Part shown: positions 8,760-51,093 of the stretch, one piece after another
Position numbering within the stretch: position 1 is the stretch's first letter
Layout of the letters: every line of letters begins with the position of its first letter
NCBI GenBank assembly: GCA_019235715.1
Contig: JAFAKE010000068.1
Location: forward strand, 1-64,000
DNA length: 64,000 nt
Source: Vulcanimicrobiota bacterium
GTDB lineage: Bacteria; Vulcanimicrobiota; Vulcanimicrobiia; Eremiobacterales; Eremiobacteraceae
Direction: 5' to 3'
Made by a program: the position numbers and the translations under genes
The notes under the pieces: generated by a model
Told to the model about the DNA's origin: nothing
The model's database searches: none
The model's input: only the letters and a program-made list of their open reading frames with translations

Positions 8760-11033
8760 ATGTTTTCATTTCGTTTTGTTTATCCATATGCGCTCGCTGT
8801 CGCGACGCTGCTCCCGGTATGCGCGCTGGGAACGCTTCCCGCGGCCGCTGACACGTACGGCGCCATCAAAGGCACCGTTTATGACGACGCAGGGCACCCG
8901 CTCGCCCACGCCGCCGTAGCTGCGCAAGCGGGCGAAGGCAAGAAAAATACGACGACGACCGGTTCAGACGGACGCTACGCGTTCGTCCGGCTCGTCGTCG
9001 AGACATACGTCGTCACCGTCAGCGCGCCCGGGCTCGCCGCGCAGACCGGCGTCGCAACGGTAACTACGGGGAGTGGCGTGACGCTCGATTTCCATCTTTC
9101 GAAGAAGAAACTCGCGACCGTAACTGCAGTCGCGTCCGCCGGTCATCCAGTCAGCGTCACGGTGCTCTCACCGCAGTACGTGCAGACGCTCCCGGACAAT
9201 TTTAAGCTCGCGCACGTCACGCAAACCATTCCCGGCGTCGTCCCGTTCTCGTATGATGAGCCGGTCGCGCGCGGTTTTCACGGGATCTCATATCAGATCG
9301 ACGGCGTGCCGGTTCCGCAGACCACATCGTCATCGTTCGCTGAGGTCGTGAATCCCGCCGACATCGGCACACTGGAGATCTACACGGGGTCGTTCCCGGC
9401 CGAATTTGGCGGCAGTCGCATGGGCGGCCTCGTGAACATCAACACGAAGCGGCCGACCGCCAACGGCGGCGATCTCGTGCTGACGGGTGGCAACTACGCG
9501 TCCGGCTCAACACAGCTCACGGATCAATTCGGCGGCGAGCAGTTCAAGGGATATGTCTCGCTGAATCTGTTCCGCACGAGCCGCGGCCTCGATGCGCCGA
9601 CCCCTGACCCCGTGACGCATGATGACGCGAGCACCGCGAGCGAGTTCATGCGCCTGACCTACAACCCGGATGCGCGCGATTCGTGGGCCTTCCATCTCTC
9701 GAATCAGTTCTCGACATTCCAGATCCCGATCGACCCAAATCCTGCGAGCATCAGCTTCGCTCCGGCCGGTACCGACGACAATCAATACGAATACAACACC
9801 TACGCGAACTTGATCTTCAACCGGCTCAGCGCGGACGGACAGGGCTATCTCGAGATCGCGCCATGGTACAACCGCTCGCAAGTGAAATTCACCAACGATC
9901 CTCTCAACGATCTCGCGAGCACGTCGGCCGCCTCGACCTTCCAGGACCGCGCCGGTATCTATTACGGCTTGACTACCGCGTGGTTCCGGACGGATCCCAA
10001 AGACAACTTCAAGACCGGCTTCACGGTCTACACAGAGAACTTCAACAGCACGTTCAACCTGCAGTTCATCGACCCCACGATGACCCTGCAGACCTTCAAC
10101 GACAACGTCAGCCAAACGGGCAGCGACATCGGCATCTACGCCGAGGACAAGCGCATCCTCTCGCCGGTATTCACCGCCAACGTAGGGTTGCGTTACGACC
10201 GCTCGACCGGATTCACATCCGGCAATCAGGTCAGCCCACGCATTGAGATCGACGGCCAAACGCTTAACCCGAAAGATACAGTCCACATCTATTACGGGCG
10301 GCTCTACGCTGCGCCGGCGTTGGAGGACACGCGCCGCGATGCGGTCATCGTTTCTGGTAGCACCGGCTTGCCAGTGTACGATCTCAAGCCCGAAACAGAT
10401 TCGATCTATGAGTTCGGCTTTGCGCATCAGATGACGCCGGTTGCGCGCTGGTACGTCAATCTGTGGGCGCGCTCGGTCGCAAACGTACTCGATACCACGC
10501 AGATCGGGTCGACGCCGATCTTCACGATCTTCAACTCGACGAGCGGCCGCGCTCAAGGCATCGAGTTCAGCTTTGCCGGTACGGATGAGAACAACGGCAA
10601 TAGTTACTTCGTCTCGTATGGGCTTTCGCAGAGCCTTGCGTCAGGCATTTCAGGCGGAACGTTCCTCTTCTCTCCAGCCACCCTGCAGGGCGCATTCGGT
10701 TACGCTCTCGAGGACCACGACCAAACCAACACGCTTAATGCCGGCTATACATTCCGCTTCATGCCCGATCGATCGGAGTTCGCCAGCATTCAAACCGAAT
10801 ACGGCAGCGGCTTTCCGGTGCAGTTCGAGAACGGCCCGGGTCGCCTGCCCGCACACTGGGAGCTCAACGCCTCTTTTGGGCGGCTGGCGTCGCGCGGACA
10901 TTTCGGCTATCAGATACAGGCGACCAATATCACCAACAACCAGTACTTGATCAAGCTCAACAACGGGTTCAACACAACCCAGTACGCACGCGGATTTCAA
11001 CTGACGGGCCAGGTGACGGCGCCGATCTTGTAG
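8760..11033 (+). CDS. TonB-dependent-receptor-type outer-membrane protein 2
   Basis: The protein has 757 residues with a signal peptide (about 1-30), a carboxypeptidase-regulatory-like domain (YGAIKGTVYDDAGHPLAHA), a plug with YQIDGVPVPQTTSSSF and FPAEFGGSRMGG, and a long barrel. GGAGG lies just upstream of the ATG. It resembles receptor 1 in order and in local motifs (NNQY near the end of the barrel in both), so the two are likely paralogues with different ligands. It follows the copy-B membrane protein and ends 36 bases from the convergent DUF3105 gene. Substrate unknown; nearby metal-uptake genes make a metal complex a reasonable guess. Confidence 0.85.
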   Translation: MFSFRFVYPYALAVATLLPVCALGTLPAAADTYGAIKGTVYDDAGHPLAHAAVAAQAGEGKKNTTTTGSDGRYAFVRLVVETYVVTVSAPGLAAQTGVATVTTGSGVTLDFHLSKKKLATVTAVASAGHPVSVTVLSPQYVQTLPDNFKLAHVTQTIPGVVPFSYDEPVARGFHGISYQIDGVPVPQTTSSSFAEVVNPADIGTLEIYTGSFPAEFGGSRMGGLVNINTKRPTANGGDLVLTGGNYASGSTQLTDQFGGEQFKGYVSLNLFRTSRGLDAPTPDPVTHDDASTASEFMRLTYNPDARDSWAFHLSNQFSTFQIPIDPNPASISFAPAGTDDNQYEYNTYANLIFNRLSADGQGYLEIAPWYNRSQVKFTNDPLNDLASTSAASTFQDRAGIYYGLTTAWFRTDPKDNFKTGFTVYTENFNSTFNLQFIDPTMTLQTFNDNVSQTGSDIGIYAEDKRILSPVFTANVGLRYDRSTGFTSGNQVSPRIEIDGQTLNPKDTVHIYYGRLYAAPALEDTRRDAVIVSGSTGLPVYDLKPETDSIYEFGFAHQMTPVARWYVNLWARSVANVLDTTQIGSTPIFTIFNSTSGRAQGIEFSFAGTDENNGNSYFVSYGLSQSLASGISGGTFLFSPATLQGAFGYALEDHDQTNTLNAGYTFRFMPDRSEFASIQTEYGSGFPVQFENGPGRLPAHWELNASFGRLASRGHFGYQIQATNITNNQYLIKLNNGFNTTQYARGFQLTGQVTAPIL

Positions 11034-45124: not shown

Positions 45125-46624
45125 TTACTCCGGTCTTTGCAGCGGGAAGAGCAGCACGTCGCGCACCGAGCTCTCGCCGCTCAGCAGCATCACGAGCCGA
45201 TCGATGCCGCTGCCCAAGCCGCCGGTCGGAGGCATGCCGTATTCGAGCGCGTGCACGTAGTCCCAGTCCGGCTCAGGCGCTTCCTGATCGCCGCGCGCGC
45301 GCTGTGCGGCCTGCGCTTCAAAACGCGTGCGCTGATCGTCCGGATCGTTGAGCTCGGAAAACGCGTTGACGATCTCCATGTGCGCGATGAACAGCTCGAA
45401 GCGCTCGACCAATTCGGCGTCGTCGCGCCGCCGCTTCGCCAGCGGCGACAGCACGAGCGGAAAATCGGTGACGAAGGTCGGGTTGAGCAACTGCGGCTCG
45501 ACGACCGCTTCGAAGATCTTGTCAATGACGTGGGCGTGACCCGCGCCCGCCTCGAGACTCAGCTTGAGGCGCTGCGCGACCGCGCGCGCGCGCTGTTCGT
45601 CCAAAATGTCCGCGCGTTCGAGTCCGCCCCACTTCGCCATCGCGTCGAGGTACGCGATGCGGGCAAATGGGCGCTCGAGTTGAAACGTTTCGCCCGCAAA
45701 CGTGTGCTCGCCGCGCACGCGCGCGACGCCGGCCAGATGCACGATCCAGTCCTCGGACAGATCCATCATCGTGTTGACGTCGCCATATGCCTGATAGAGC
45801 TCGAGCATGGTGAACTCTGGGTTATGCGTGCGGTCGATGCCCTCGTTGCGGAAGATGCGGCCCAGCTCGTACACCTTCTCGATGCCGCCGACGATGCAGC
45901 GTTTGAGGTTGAGTTCGGTGGCGATGCGCAGCTGCAGCGAGATGTCGAGCGCATTGGAGTGCGTCACGAAGGGTCGCGCATTGGCGCCGCCCGCGATCGA
46001 GAGCAGCACCGGTGTTTCGACTTCGACAAACCCGCGCTCGTCGAGGTAATGGCGCGTCGCGGCGATCAGCTTGCTGCGCAGCAGCATCGTCTCCAGCACG
46101 GGGCGGTTGACGATGAGATCGACGTAGCGCTGGCGGTAGCGCGTCTCGTGGTCGGTCAAGCCGTGCCATTTCTCAGGCAATTGGCGCAGCGACTTGGCGA
46201 GCACGGTGAACGCCTTGACCGCGATCGTGAGCTCGCCGGTCTTGGTCACGAACGGTTCGCCTTCGACGCCGACCAGATCGCCGCGATCGAGCGTGTCGAC
46301 CAAACGGAACTCGTCGCCGAGCGCATCCGCGCGGAAATAGATCTGGATGCGGCCCGACTGGTCGCTGACGTCGGAGAACACCGCTTTCTTGCCCATCGCG
46401 CGCACGGTCCCCATGCGCCCCGCAGCGCGCACGAGCGTGCCGCTTGCGTGCTCGCCGGGCTGCAGCGCGCCGAATTTCTCGTGCAGGTCGCGCGCCTCGT
46501 GCGAGCGGTCGAAGCGGGTCAGCGCGAACGGATCGCGCCCGGATGAACGCAGCGCGTCGAGTTTCGCTCGACGCGCTTTGATCAGTTCGGCTTCAGTCGC
46601 CCCGAGCTCGTGATCCTCGCTCAA
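45125..46624 (-). CDS. lysS: Lysyl-tRNA synthetase (class II)
   Basis: The 499-residue enzyme has an N-terminal OB-fold anticodon domain and a class II catalytic core. Motif 2 is around RIFRNEGIDRTHNPEFTMLE, and motif 3 is in the GLGSGIDRLVML segment. The start codon is TTG at 46624, overlapping the greA stop as TTGA. The minus-strand order greA-lysS is a common pairing. It ends the operon, followed by the gene-poor gap. Confidence 0.97.
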   Translation of the reverse strand: MSEDHELGATEAELIKARRAKLDALRSSGRDPFALTRFDRSHEARDLHEKFGALQPGEHASGTLVRAAGRMGTVRAMGKKAVFSDVSDQSGRIQIYFRADALGDEFRLVDTLDRGDLVGVEGEPFVTKTGELTIAVKAFTVLAKSLRQLPEKWHGLTDHETRYRQRYVDLIVNRPVLETMLLRSKLIAATRHYLDERGFVEVETPVLLSIAGGANARPFVTHSNALDISLQLRIATELNLKRCIVGGIEKVYELGRIFRNEGIDRTHNPEFTMLELYQAYGDVNTMMDLSEDWIVHLAGVARVRGEHTFAGETFQLERPFARIAYLDAMAKWGGLERADILDEQRARAVAQRLKLSLEAGAGHAHVIDKIFEAVVEPQLLNPTFVTDFPLVLSPLAKRRRDDAELVERFELFIAHMEIVNAFSELNDPDDQRTRFEAQAAQRARGDQEAPEPDWDYVHALEYGMPPTGGLGSGIDRLVMLLSGESSVRDVLLFPLQRPE

Positions 46625-47127
46625 CGCGCCTTCGCTTTGCCGCTCTTGCGGTTCGCGCGGATCGAGATGATCTTGAGCTGCACGTCGCCGCTCGGCGTAT
46701 TTGCCGTCACCGTCTGGCCCGGCTTCGCGCCGATGAGCGCCATGCCGATCGGCGACTCGTTGGAGATCTTCGAATGCAACGGATCGCTCTCCGCGCTGCC
46801 GACGATCGTGTACTCGTTCTCCGCACCGCTGTTGAGGTTTTTGACCTTGACGGTGCTCGCCAGGTGCACTTCGTCCGCGCCGCCTTCGCCTTCGACGATG
46901 ATCTTCGCGTTGCGGATCATCGCTTCGAGCTTCATGATGCGGCCTTCGATGAACGCCTGCTCCTGCTTGGCGTCCTCGTATTCGGCGTTTTCGGAGATAT
47001 CGCCGAACTCTTTGGCCTGGCGGATGCGGTCGTTCACCTCTTTGCGGTGCACGGTCTTGAGCTCGTCGAGCTCGGTTTCAAGCTTGCGCAATCCATCAGC
47101 GGTCAGTACGGTCTCTTTTTCCTGCAT
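46621..47127 (-). CDS. greA: Transcription elongation factor GreA
   Basis: The 168-residue protein has the GreA N-terminal coiled coil (LRKLETELDELKTVHRKEVN, then EFGDISENAEYEDAKQEQ with the two acidic tip residues). Its C-terminal domain has the family SNESPIGMALIGAKPGQTV sequence. It rescues backtracked RNA polymerase. AAAGGA precedes the ATG. A short basic tail (IRANRKSGKAKAR) extends the usual end. Confidence 0.97.
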   Translation of the reverse strand: MQEKETVLTADGLRKLETELDELKTVHRKEVNDRIRQAKEFGDISENAEYEDAKQEQAFIEGRIMKLEAMIRNAKIIVEGEGGADEVHLASTVKVKNLNSGAENEYTIVGSAESDPLHSKISNESPIGMALIGAKPGQTVTANTPSGDVQLKIISIRANRKSGKAKAR

Positions 47128-47151: not shown

Positions 47152-48081
47152 TTAAGAGCGCGCCGCTACATCGTGTTGTGGAAACGTCTCGATCCGGGGC
47201 GCGAAGTGTAACTCGTGCAAGACGCGCATGTAGTCTTCTTCGCGCACGTCCTCCCAGCGCTTGCCGAGCAGCGCGAGCAGCGCCGCCTCCATCACGTTGG
47301 TGCCGAACGACCGGCCACCGAGGTTCGGCGTGCTGGTCACGAGCCGCGCGACGCCGCGTTCGCGCAACTCGTCGACGTTGGCTTGCGTGACGGTGTTCGT
47401 GAGAATCGTCTTGCCGCGCAAGTCGTCCGGCATGTGCTGGCGGATGAAGTGGAAGTCACCGGCGATGACGTCGGCGGCTGCGTAGTACTGCGAGAACTTC
47501 GGCTCGGGCGGCTTTTCTTGCTTCTTGCCCGTGGGATAGAAGAACTGGAACGGCAGCTTGCACGCGTCGGGCAGATAGCGCTCGGCGAGCGCTTCGAACT
47601 CGGCCAGCGACGTCACCGGCTTGTCGATGCCGAGCGCGAAGATGAAGTCGCCGAAGGTGACGCGCGCGCCCGCGTCGACCAACGCCTGCGCCATGCCGAA
47701 GCGGTCGAGCGCGCTCACCATGAGGACCGGCCTGCCGCGGAAATCGATAATGCCTTCCTGTTGAAGGCGCTGGACCGTCTCGCGCTCGAGCGTGTTCTTC
47801 AGACCGCTGCCGTCGACGACCGGCGTCGTCTTCACCGCTTCGAGCATGCGCAAACCGTCGCGCAGCGCGTAGCGTTTCTTGCCGGCGTACAGGTAGACGT
47901 CGATGCCCCCGAGGCCGATCGCGTCGACCGTGCCGTCCAACTCGCGCAGCTTCGCGATCGCGCGATCGAGCGAGCCGTCAAAACCGATGCGGTTGATGTC
48001 GAAATGCTCGCCGAGCCAGTCGACCTCGATGCGGTGATCGCGCGTCGACGAGCCGAGGCTGACCGAAACGATCTTCTTCAT
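47152..48081 (-). CDS. Quinate-5-dehydrogenase-like protein of unknown activity
   Basis: The 309-residue protein begins VSVSLGSSTRDHRIEVDWLG and contains LDGTVDAIGLGGIDVYLYAG and RFGMAQALVDAGARVTFGDF. Homologues in other phyla are often labelled quinate 5-dehydrogenase, but the sequence shows no convincing quinate or shikimate site, so I treat the name as unproven. Its start overlaps the stop of the AAR-like reductase (ATGA), and greA follows by 24 bases. A joint function with that reductase is the most useful clue. Confidence 0.75.
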   Translation of the reverse strand: MKKIVSVSLGSSTRDHRIEVDWLGEHFDINRIGFDGSLDRAIAKLRELDGTVDAIGLGGIDVYLYAGKKRYALRDGLRMLEAVKTTPVVDGSGLKNTLERETVQRLQQEGIIDFRGRPVLMVSALDRFGMAQALVDAGARVTFGDFIFALGIDKPVTSLAEFEALAERYLPDACKLPFQFFYPTGKKQEKPPEPKFSQYYAAADVIAGDFHFIRQHMPDDLRGKTILTNTVTQANVDELRERGVARLVTSTPNLGGRSFGTNVMEAALLALLGKRWEDVREEDYMRVLHELHFAPRIETFPQHDVAARS

Positions 48082-49247
48082 CGCGCGTGTGCCGTCTGAT
48101 CGGGCTGCACCGCGGCCGCGACCGCAGCGCCGTTGGTCGCGGCGGCCGCGCGCGCTCTACGCGCCGCTTCGCGGGTGTGCGCGACTTGCTCGGCGCTCAC
48201 CGCCTTGTCGAACGCGCGCATGCCGGCAAGTTTGAATCCGTGTTTATCCGCCAGGCGCTCGATCTCGAGCACCTTGTCGAGGTGGATGCCGCGCCCGAGC
48301 GAGTAGTTGACGAACTTGTTCTCGAGCGTCAAGATCATCGTTTCGGACATGCATGCGAGCGCGGTGCGCGGCGGCAGACCGAAATCGAAATTGAAGTTCA
48401 CATCTCCCGGCACCAAGATGTTCCCGCCTTCGCTCACCAGCACGTCCGGACGCTCCGTCGCGACGCGACGCGACACGTCGTGCGGCAGCGACACCTCGCT
48501 GATGACCGCCCCAGCCTTGAGATCTTCGGGTTCGACGATCGCCGACACGGCCGAGGTCGCCGTGAGCACGAGATCGGCCTTACGCACCGCTTCGCGGACA
48601 TCGATGGTCCAGTCAAGCGCGGCGCTGACGTGCGGCTGCATCGCGTGCGCAAGATTCTTCAAGCGAGTGGCATTGCGCGCCGCGAGCGTCACGCGCGCGA
48701 CGCGATTGCCCAAGATCTGCGCGCAGGCAGAACCGATGCTGCCGGTAGCGCCGATCACGACGGCGCTTGCATTTGCTTCGTCGATCTCCAACTCGCGCGC
48801 GGCGCGGAATAAGCTTTGAATGCCCGCCGCGATCGTGTACGAATTGCCGGTCGTGATGGCGATCCCGGACACGGTCTCGGCCAAGGTGACGCCGCCGTCC
48901 CCCACGACCGATGAGAATCCGCCCAGGCCGAGGATGCCGCAGCCCAACTCCTTCGCGAGCTCAGCAGCGCCGACGAGACGCGCCATGATATCGGCGCGCG
49001 GCAACTCGAGCCACGACTCGGGCATGATCGGCACGCCGATGAAGTGCCCAGTGATCTCTTCGCCGGTCGCCGCGCTGCGCACGCCGGTGATGTCGGATAC
49101 CCGGTAGGGCGGGATCCATTCCAGAATCTTCTTTATGATAGGGCGTCCTTTGCCGACCGCGCCGGGATCATAGCGCTCGACGTCGTCGTAGGACAAAGGA
49201 TGGACGATGAATCCGAACTTGCGCAAATGCGGGGCTCCGTCGTTCAA
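48078..49247 (-). CDS. Long-chain acyl-ACP reductase (AAR)-like protein
   Basis: The 389-residue protein resembles cyanobacterial AAR, which reduces fatty acyl-ACP to aldehydes. It starts GFIVHPLSYDDVERY, has LGCGILGLGGFSSVVGDGG and ITTGNSYTIAAGIQS, a nucleotide site VVIGATGSIGSACAQIL, and RTALACMSETMILTLENK, whose cysteine matches the AAR catalytic Cys position. The end, GFKLAGMRAF, also fits. A roughly 35-residue Ala-rich tail is extra. The start is TTG at 49247 with AAAGG eight bases upstream. It is coupled to the quinate-dehydrogenase-like gene, rather than to the aldehyde-deformylating oxygenase of cyanobacteria. Confidence 0.72.
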   Translation of the reverse strand: MNDGAPHLRKFGFIVHPLSYDDVERYDPGAVGKGRPIIKKILEWIPPYRVSDITGVRSAATGEEITGHFIGVPIMPESWLELPRADIMARLVGAAELAKELGCGILGLGGFSSVVGDGGVTLAETVSGIAITTGNSYTIAAGIQSLFRAARELEIDEANASAVVIGATGSIGSACAQILGNRVARVTLAARNATRLKNLAHAMQPHVSAALDWTIDVREAVRKADLVLTATSAVSAIVEPEDLKAGAVISEVSLPHDVSRRVATERPDVLVSEGGNILVPGDVNFNFDFGLPPRTALACMSETMILTLENKFVNYSLGRGIHLDKVLEIERLADKHGFKLAGMRAFDKAVSAEQVAHTREAARRARAAAATNGAAVAAAVQPDQTAHAR

Positions 49248-49307: not shown

Positions 49308-49757
49308 TCAGGCCCGCTGTGTGCGTTTTTCCGCGTGCGACTTGAGCGCCGACAGCATCATGAGCGAATTCTCTTCGACCTTCTTCTGCAGCGTCGGCCC
49401 GATGAGTTCGGCCAACGTCGGCACGCCGAAATCGTAGTCGACGCTGAGCACGACGTGCGTCACGCCGTCGCGTTCTGCGAACGTCCAGGCGCCTTCGAAT
49501 TTGTCAAGATCGCCCTCGATGAGCCGGTAGTCGATTCGTGTTCGTCCATCGTCGAAGACGTCGACTTCCGTCCACTCGATCGGGGCCTCTTCGACGAGCG
49601 TCTTCCAACGCGTCGTCGTGCTGTTGCCATCTCGGCTGATGACTCTGACCGACTCAACATCGGGCATGAACTCGGGGTAGCTCTCCATGTCCTTGGCAAG
49701 CTCGTAGATGACGCGCGCCGGCGCGGCGATGTCGATCGCGGTCTCTACGTAGGGCAT
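49308..49757 (-). CDS. START/SRPBCC-domain protein (polyketide cyclase/CoQ10-binding type)
   Basis: The 149-residue protein starts MPYVETAIDIAAPARVIYEL and continues through MESYPEFMPDVESVRVI to a C-terminal helix, ELIGPTLQKKVEENSLMML. This is the helix-grip fold that binds lipids or polyketides, as in COQ10-like proteins. An ATG at 49790 would add eleven residues but begins right after the upstream terminator. It precedes the AAR-like gene by 60 bases on the same strand, so a lipid-handling partnership is plausible but unproved. Confidence 0.85.
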   Translation of the reverse strand: MPYVETAIDIAAPARVIYELAKDMESYPEFMPDVESVRVISRDGNSTTTRWKTLVEEAPIEWTEVDVFDDGRTRIDYRLIEGDLDKFEGAWTFAERDGVTHVVLSVDYDFGVPTLAELIGPTLQKKVEENSLMMLSALKSHAEKRTQRA

Positions 49758-49791
49758 CGGATGCGGTTCTCGTCCTCTTCGCGCACGCATC

Positions 49792-49815
49792 AAAACGGCC
49801 GAGTAAACTCGGCCG
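49792..49815 (-). terminator. Terminator of the aminotransferase gene
   Basis: The eight-base stem CGGCCGAG and CTCGGCCG with a four-base loop (49796-49815) is followed on minus by TTTT (49792-49795). It ends the class III aminotransferase transcript just before the START-domain gene, which must therefore have its own short promoter or rely on read-through. Confidence 0.8.
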
Positions 49816-49842: not shown

Positions 49843-51093
49843 TCAGCTCGTGCGTGCTAGCTCTCCGAGTTTTTCCTTGGCTTTGGTCACTCCTTGTCCG
49901 AGCAACGTGAGCGCTTCGTCGATCTCTGTTTTCGTCACGATGAGCGGTGGTTCGAGACGGATGACCTTTTGCTGGTTCAGCGTGTACGCCGCAGTCAATC
50001 CGAGCTTGAGGCATTCGGGGATGATCACGCCGCCGTACCCTTCGTTCGTCAGCTCGACGCCGACAAGCAAACCGCGGCCGCGCACTTCCGCGATGACGTC
50101 CGGATGCCGCGCCATCAGTTCGCCCGCGCGGTCCAGCATGTACGCGCCCAGCTCTCGCGAGCGCGCGACGAGATGCTCTTCTTCGAGCACGCGCAGCGCG
50201 GCCAGGCCCGCTGTGCACGCGAGTGGATTGCCGCCGAACGTCGAGGTATGGATAAGCGGCGCGTGTCCGAATGCGCGCGTCCAAACGTCGGGCCGGCTGA
50301 TCGTCGCGCCGATCGGGATGACGCCGCCTGACAATCCCTTGGCCACGGTCAAAATGTCAGGCACGGCGCGGTCGTGATCGACGCCCCACACGTAGCCGGT
50401 GCGGCCGAGGCCGGTCTGCACTTCGTCCGCGATGAACAGCGCGCCGTGCTTATCGCACAGCTCGCGCACGCCGCGCAGGTACCCGTCCGGCGGAATCATC
50501 ACGCCGCCTTCGGCTTGCACGGGTTCGACGATGAACGCAGCGGCGCCGGGCAGCGCGCGATCGAGTTCGTCGAGATCGCCGAACGCGACGTGGTTGAACT
50601 CGGGCACGAGCGGCTTGAACGAATCCTTGAACACGTCGCGGCCGGTCGCGGTAAGGCTACCCATCGTCTTGCCGTGGTATGCGTTGTGCGTCGCCACGAT
50701 CTTCGTGCGCTTGGTCGACAAGCGCGCGGTTTTGAGCGCAGCTTCGACCGCTTCGGTGCCGCTGTTCGAGAAAAAACTGATCTCGAGATCGCCGGGCGCG
50801 ATGCGCGCAAGCTCCTGCGCGAGCGCGGCGGTCTTGGCATTGAAGAACACGCGCGACGACAACGCCATGTGATCGAGCTGCTCGCGCACAGCAGCGACGA
50901 CCTTCGGATGCAGATAGCCGAGCGTGAACACGCCGTAGCCGCCGCAGAAGTCGAGATACGACTTGCCGTTCTCGTCGGTGATGCGCACGCCGTGCGCAGT
51001 GGTCTCGACCGTGGCGCCGGCGAGCTTCATGAAACGCGCGAGCGGCGGATTGATGTACTGCTTGTATGCAGCGTAGACGTCGTCAAAGGACAT
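49843..51093 (-). CDS. Class III PLP-dependent aminotransferase
   Basis: From the ATG at 51093 the enzyme is 416 residues. It has the fold-type I, class III pattern: SNSGTEAVEAALKTARL, LFIADEVQTGLGRTG with the cofactor Asp, ILTVAKGLSGGVIPIGA with the PLP lysine, and HTSTFGGNPLACTAGLA. The N-terminal YKQYINPPLARFM segment is like putrescine and ornithine aminotransferases. Exact substrate is uncertain; ornithine, putrescine or another omega-amino compound is likely. Upstream in-frame sequence is antisense to the next gene and was excluded. Confidence 0.88.
   Translation of the reverse strand: MSFDDVYAAYKQYINPPLARFMKLAGATVETTAHGVRITDENGKSYLDFCGGYGVFTLGYLHPKVVAAVREQLDHMALSSRVFFNAKTAALAQELARIAPGDLEISFFSNSGTEAVEAALKTARLSTKRTKIVATHNAYHGKTMGSLTATGRDVFKDSFKPLVPEFNHVAFGDLDELDRALPGAAAFIVEPVQAEGGVMIPPDGYLRGVRELCDKHGALFIADEVQTGLGRTGYVWGVDHDRAVPDILTVAKGLSGGVIPIGATISRPDVWTRAFGHAPLIHTSTFGGNPLACTAGLAALRVLEEEHLVARSRELGAYMLDRAGELMARHPDVIAEVRGRGLLVGVELTNEGYGGVIIPECLKLGLTAAYTLNQQKVIRLEPPLIVTKTEIDEALTLLGQGVTKAKEKLGELARTS

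Follow-up and report, generated by a model that had tools for sequence, protein, structure and literature searches.

A core-genome aminotransferase-START-AAR-QDH locus of Vulcanimicrobiota as a probable split relative of PigE and TamH

In the glutamyl-tRNA reductase and GSA aminomutase pair, a Cys-thioester reductase hands its aldehyde to a class III PLP enzyme. PigE of prodigiosin MAP biosynthesis (NF053554, PDB 4ppm) combines a reductase of the acyl-ACP reductase (AAR) type with a class III aminotransferase, and TamH and KecF, of tambjamine and koreenceine biosynthesis, also join an aminotransferase to an AAR-type reductase. Conversion of an acyl thioester to an aldehyde and then to an amine was shown experimentally for PigE and TamH (PMC8341465, PMC9594044), and the analogy of such pairing to glutamyl-tRNA reductase and GSA aminomutase has been drawn (PMC8341465). 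For KecF the same conversion was proposed by prediction only (PMC6498172). PigE is a single chain with the reductase N-terminal, encoded in a natural-product cluster, while TamH and KecF are fused in the order aminotransferase-AAR, belong to secondary-metabolite clusters and convert acyl-ACP to an amine, as assayed for TamH and predicted for KecF. For the cyanobacterial long-chain acyl-ACP reductase (TIGR04058, 6jzq), the reference residues of SeAAR are C294, the loop GATGDIG and the NADPH 2'-phosphate arginines R189, R193 and R314 (PMC7089970).

The window analyzed here is a stretch of 64,000 nucleotides from a Vulcanimicrobiota bacterium (contig JAFAKE010000068.1). An AAR-type reductase with an intact Cys and a class III aminotransferase (AT) with its PLP lysine are encoded together in it (Table 1). 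The two proteins share their best NCBIfam match, PigE, but they are separate genes of a core-genome locus, and unlike in TamH and KecF the split pair is accompanied by genes for a START protein and for a protein labelled quinate dehydrogenase (QDH). The PigE equivalog NF053554 describes a single didomain protein scoring above 850 bits, whereas the two window proteins score 189 and 421 bits. PigE also differs in its nucleotide loop, which is GYPGSIC and not the canonical GATGSIG. The start of QDH overlaps the stop of AAR (ATGA), and the spacing is tight between QDH and greA and between greA and lysS. All open reading frames named in the sequence-only reading (AAR-like, 309-aa neighbour, START-like, greA and lysS) were recovered in place; the START-like frame was listed as 49308-49793 (minus strand), with the likely start lying further in. 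That reading had correctly paired AAR with QDH, but it overlooked the AT at 49843-51093, which is the most informative neighbour. No Rfam elements were found near the cluster. Elsewhere in the window (8838-8916, minus strand), a tRNA-Tyr called by ARAGORN has ATA as its anticodon rather than the usual GTA, and this may be a mis-call.

Table 1. Features of the locus in the window, and AAR descendants that lack the catalytic Cys, all from genomes with an AT-AAR fusion
Feature	Position	Strand	Remarks
Class III (PLP) aminotransferase (AT)	49843..51093	-	start taken as ATG 51093 (MSFDDVYAAYKQ...); PLP lysine in TVAKGLSGG
Hairpin CGGCCGAG-TTTA-CTCGGCCG followed by TTTT	49792..49815	-	between the AT and START genes; read in the sequence
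START/polyketide-cyclase (RatA/COQ10-like) protein	49308..49757	-	likely start ATG 49757 (MPYVETAIDI...); PF03364, 7.9e-22
AAR-type acyl-thioester reductase	48078..49247	-	Cys299; loop 166-GATGSIG-172; R191/R195/R319
QDH, labelled quinate dehydrogenase	47152..48081	-	309-aa two-domain Rossmann-like protein
greA	46621..47127	-	conserved flanking gene; 24-bp gap from QDH
lysS	45125..46624	-	conserved flanking gene
Cys-less, increasingly diverged AAR descendants, part 1	L287:143-1258, L288:15721-16836, L291, L299		genomes with AT-AAR fusion
Cys-less, increasingly diverged AAR descendants, part 2	L302:2888-3805, L303:3439-4347, L305:4476-5510, L306:4834-5760		

The AAR-like protein carries both landmarks that had been pointed out in it, the cysteine region (ACMSET, with Cys299) and the nucleotide site GATGSIGSA (166-174). 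Its family matches were far beyond chance, with NF053554 PigE first (189 bits, E 1.2e-55) and the cyanobacterial TIGR04058 at 111.7 bits (E 4.4e-32, below the curated cutoff of 449.7), both scores being far below the equivalog cutoffs. Pfam gave a generic Rossmann domain only. Among solved structures, the reductase half of PigE (4ppm) matched the sequence best and the Synechococcus AAR second. The proposed kinship with cyanobacterial AAR therefore holds for the type of enzyme, but its closest described relatives are the reductase halves of PigE/TamH-type fusions. The AlphaFold2 model (pLDDT 87.1) resembled the AAR entries 6jz* in Foldseek with TM 0.66-0.83 (6jzq 0.73-0.83; best E 5e-23), while shikimate dehydrogenases reached at most 0.38 (query-normalised). 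Profile scores and fold together rule out a shikimate or saccharopine dehydrogenase, and the HMM comparison placed the protein much closer to AAR than to shikimate dehydrogenase. Similarity to glutamyl-tRNA reductase was weak and confined to the nucleotide-binding region (E about 1e-9); the likeness to the glutamyl-tRNA reductase and GSA aminomutase pair lies in the combination of a thioester reductase with a class III PLP enzyme.

With about 26% identity to cyanobacterial AAR, the protein shares its fold, Cys nucleophile, nucleotide loop and NADPH arginines. Cys299 corresponds to the catalytic C294 of SeAAR and was invariant in 28 aligned sequences; the loop GATGDIG became GATGSIG, and R189, R193 and R314 correspond to R191, R195 and R319. 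The phylum clade (17 sequences) keeps the Cys, the loop and the arginines throughout, as do nearly all of the 11 other cluster sequences. Judged from its sequence, the product of 48078-49247 is an AAR-type reductase with an intact active site and a downstream partner other than aldehyde-deformylating oxygenase (ADO). It probably reduces an acyl thioester, and a long-chain substrate is plausible.

AAR was detected in 138 of 149 genomes of the phylum and in 83/85 of the good genomes, and QDH in 54 of 58 good relatives and in all 32 genomes from other classes; the genomes are mostly MAGs, in which absence can reflect incompleteness, and E-values were calculated per genome. The gene order AT-START-AAR-QDH-greA-lysS was kept in 20/20 class genomes examined, with occasional insertions. 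In several relatives of the window APC amino-acid permeases are inserted between QDH and greA (L035:6117-7511, L042:7766-9187, L044:5936-7228). The genes after QDH in Desulfotomaculia encode an SCP2-like lipid-binding protein and a further APC permease (L165:7986-9705). The full AT-START-AAR-QDH cluster was also seen in MAGs named 'Chloroflexi' or 'Armatimonadetes', which we withdrew as evidence from other phyla because several of these loci belong to genomes that are themselves members of the GTDB phylum of the window. By sequence, L174 ('Chloroflexi bacterium') is G072, L155 is G141 and L161 is G067, and for G072 and G164 the coordinates also coincide.

The label of quinate dehydrogenase could not be upheld for the neighbour. 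QDH matched no Pfam family, including the PF01488/AroE profile, gave a chance match only in NCBIfam (E 0.087) and had no relative among PDB sequences even when a profile of 41 sequences was used. Its AlphaFold2 model (pLDDT 90.9, pTM 0.89) is two-domain and Rossmann-like, an architecture shared in general terms with shikimate/quinate dehydrogenases, but the fold is not close to the AroE/YdiB type (TMq 0.28 to 1vi2) and, like the missing Pfam match, gives no support to placing QDH in that family. All Foldseek matches were partial; the best were to AAR (TM 0.46-0.48), and shikimate dehydrogenase was also among them. Both the fold search and visual inspection hinted at sequence homology between QDH and AAR, but profile-profile comparison gave it no support (Prob 0.7-3.5%), and the modelled likeness may be claimed at the level of fold resemblance only. 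The protein is strongly conserved, and at the usual GxGxxG position it has S-A-x-D-R-F-G-M-A, with D126 and R127 invariant. Since the canonical motif is missing, classical NAD(P) binding appears doubtful.

At least 564 relatives of QDH were obtained when genome contigs were scanned, and many Desulfotomaculum-type Bacillota are among the best 80. A search of open-licence papers for 'quinate 5-dehydrogenase' together with Desulfotomaculum found nothing. Second, diverged copies of QDH (35-40% identity) occur in several Bacillota genomes (G253, G214, G212 and G264).

We analyzed 120 Bacillota genomes, from the phylum of Desulforamulus putei, in which QDH was present in 93 and AAR in 84. Both occurred in 82, neither in 25, QDH only in 11 and AAR only in two (Fisher p 4e-15, a descriptive value that ignores shared ancestry). 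Of the 82 genomes with both, 63 have QDH immediately upstream of AAR in the same orientation, mostly with less than 60 bp between them; in the window the two genes stand in the opposite order. Typically the locus reads dus - HTH protein - QDH - AAR - greA - lysS, and in most of the Bacillota loci inspected no AT was found beside QDH-AAR. The pairing noticed in the window is thus real and reaches far beyond this lineage, and QDH is probably a functional partner of AAR. Neither AAR nor a fusion was detected in 11 of the 93 QDH-bearing genomes, although one of them, G280, carries an incomplete AAR-like ORF where a contig ends. Retention of QDH in these genomes indicates that it is not wholly dependent on AAR.

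Directly upstream of QDH, most Bacillota loci encode an HTH-type protein of about 180 aa without a Pfam match (L267:5165-5707; L221:6867-7397; L301-L315), and a relative of it precedes the AT-AAR fusions in L230, L231 and L286. This protein likely belongs to the QDH-AAR system.

In about 16 of the 120 Bacillota genomes, as well as in L230 and L231, the AAR domain is part of an ORF of about 870-1370 aa. The fused ORFs that were read have the TamH order, AT then AAR, with the Cys intact. The solo AARs in fusion-bearing genomes kept the Cys in none of the four that could still be aligned (W, W, S, A), while those in genomes without a TamH-order fusion kept it in 45/48, one of the 45 (G284) having a PigE-like fusion. 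Loss in 4/4 against 3/48 gives a Fisher p of 1.3e-4, which again is descriptive and ignores shared ancestry. The three exceptions, solo AARs that lie next to QDH but lack the Cys (L293:801-1817, L294:805-1893, L296:1303-2838), come from G172, G193 and G167, in which no AT-AAR fusion was found.

The Cys-less descendants in the fusion-bearing genomes (Table 1) mostly occupy the slot between QDH and greA. In fusion-bearing G224 this slot holds a 305-aa protein that barely matches AAR (5e-11), and in three more fusion genomes the slot protein was recognisable as AAR through profile comparison only (Prob 89, E 2.5e-6). The simplest reading is that the AT-AAR fusion takes over the reductase step of the solo AAR, which would tie the native job of AAR to an aminotransferase. 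The Cys-less genes have been kept open, which suggests that they retain a non-catalytic role. When plasmids were searched with the AAR-like protein, 16 records were found, with 13 matches under an aminotransferase-annotated gene and three without annotation at the match. On a Leisingera plasmid (L233:4621-8808), next to the gene of an MMPL transporter, a 1395-aa protein is encoded in which an acyl-CoA ligase domain is joined to an aminotransferase and an AAR-type reductase.

The AT of the window belongs to PF00202 (E 1.4e-107). Its best NCBIfam score was to PigE (421 bits), with putrescine aminotransferase next (412 bits); in the single-sequence search of the PDB, putrescine aminotransferase was the closest solved relative (336 bits) and PigE followed (312 bits). 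The AT adjoins START-AAR-QDH in 20/20 class genomes, and in other classes it shares a contig with AAR and sits close to it. In the tree, the cluster ATs formed no resolved clade with the fused AT domains, so the AT half of the cluster may be a separate recruitment. The START-like gene, whose product is assigned to a lipid-binding family, is conserved between AT and AAR in the class genomes. The hairpin located 3' of AT, with its short T-run, is a possible weak terminator between AT and START; the intergenic stretch that holds it gave a local fold of -26.9 kcal/mol, and the hairpin was absent from the output of a consensus scan. AT may therefore not always be cotranscribed with START-AAR-QDH.

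We read AT-START-AAR-QDH as a split relative of PigE/TamH in the core genome of the Eremiobacterota/Vulcanimicrobiota that converts an acyl thioester to an amine, with a probability of about 0.58. This is supported by PigE as the top NCBIfam match of AAR as well as AT, by the fold and active-site residues of AAR, the conserved gene order, the plasmid matches and the AT-AAR fusions, by the loss of the solo Cys where a fusion is present, and by the absence of ADO. The acyl group, supplied by ACP or CoA, would be bound by Cys299 of the AAR-type protein and reduced with NADPH to the aldehyde. Passage of this aldehyde to the neighbouring class III aminotransferase is somewhat favoured, and would give a primary amine, with an amino acid as the probable donor. 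The START protein would probably carry or shield the hydrophobic intermediate, and QDH would act as a non-canonical Rossmann-type partner in the reductase step. This reading is weakened by the lack of an AT beside most Bacillota QDH-AAR pairs, by the hairpin between AT and START, by the 11 QDH genomes without AAR, by the three Cys losses without a fusion and by the lack of a resolved clade of cluster and fused ATs.

The first of these points, together with the adjacency of QDH and AAR in Bacillota, would also fit a core unit of AAR and QDH alone, in which AAR makes a fatty aldehyde and QDH carries out a second reduction, yielding for instance an alcohol used in ether lipids or other lipids, and AT and START are accessory in the phylum. 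The two-domain Rossmann-like model of QDH, whose matches include AAR and shikimate dehydrogenase, agrees with such an activity, but its altered GxGxxG position does not, QDH persists where AAR is missing, and the takeover from solo AAR by AT-AAR fusions speaks for an amine as the product. We consider this explanation unlikely. The same low probability is given to a catabolic direction, in which AT deaminates an imported amine or amino acid and the AAR-type enzyme oxidises the aldehyde to an acyl thioester. Putrescine aminotransferase as the closest solved relative of AT is consistent with it, as are the APC amino-acid/polyamine permeases, which separate QDH from greA in several relatives and follow QDH in Desulfotomaculia. 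However, the locus is part of the conserved core of the phylum and has retained no other catabolic gene, the NADPH-type arginines favour reduction, and the characterised PigE/TamH relatives run reductively.

A non-cyanobacterial AAR-ADO alkane pathway, suggested by an AAR-type enzyme with its catalytic Cys, is largely refuted and most improbable, since ADO (PF11266) was found in 1/61 class genomes and was absent from the other 60 and from the window's own genome, and the ADO-docking residues of SeAAR are missing (R73 replaced by Pro, R118 deleted, R79 not conserved). The sequence-only proposal of AAR-like acyl reduction outside cyanobacteria and without ADO accordingly gains support from profiles, fold, the conserved Cys and the absence of PF11266, though it remains a prediction.

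The chemistry and the enzyme pairing are already known from PigE, TamH and KecF. What is new is that the pair is split and forms a core locus of a phylum, that AAR is tightly associated with an uncharacterised family in both phyla, and that a series of pseudoenzymes exists; no description of the AT-START-AAR-QDH system was found in the open-licence papers searched. Tentatively, an undescribed housekeeping pathway common to Vulcanimicrobiota and Desulfotomaculum-type Bacillota might turn an acyl thioester into a primary amine, which could be an amino-lipid or a signalling amine, with QDH as a new family acting with AAR and the solo AAR having a second, non-catalytic role with QDH. Such a role would explain why Cys-less descendants are kept as open genes after a fusion takes over. 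In the literature on Vulcanimicrobium chemotaxonomy, the polar lipids listed are unidentified ones only.

Acyl-thioester reductase plus aminotransferase chemistry is otherwise known from secondary-metabolite clusters (prodigiosin, tambjamine and koreenceine). A syntenic, mostly single-copy core locus across a phylum, together with the tie to QDH in Bacillota, suggests a general, unrecognised amine-forming step and predicts a class of metabolites to seek in Vulcanimicrobium and Desulfotomaculum-type strains. It also offers a functional context for the mislabelled QDH family and a natural series of transitions from enzyme to pseudoenzyme.
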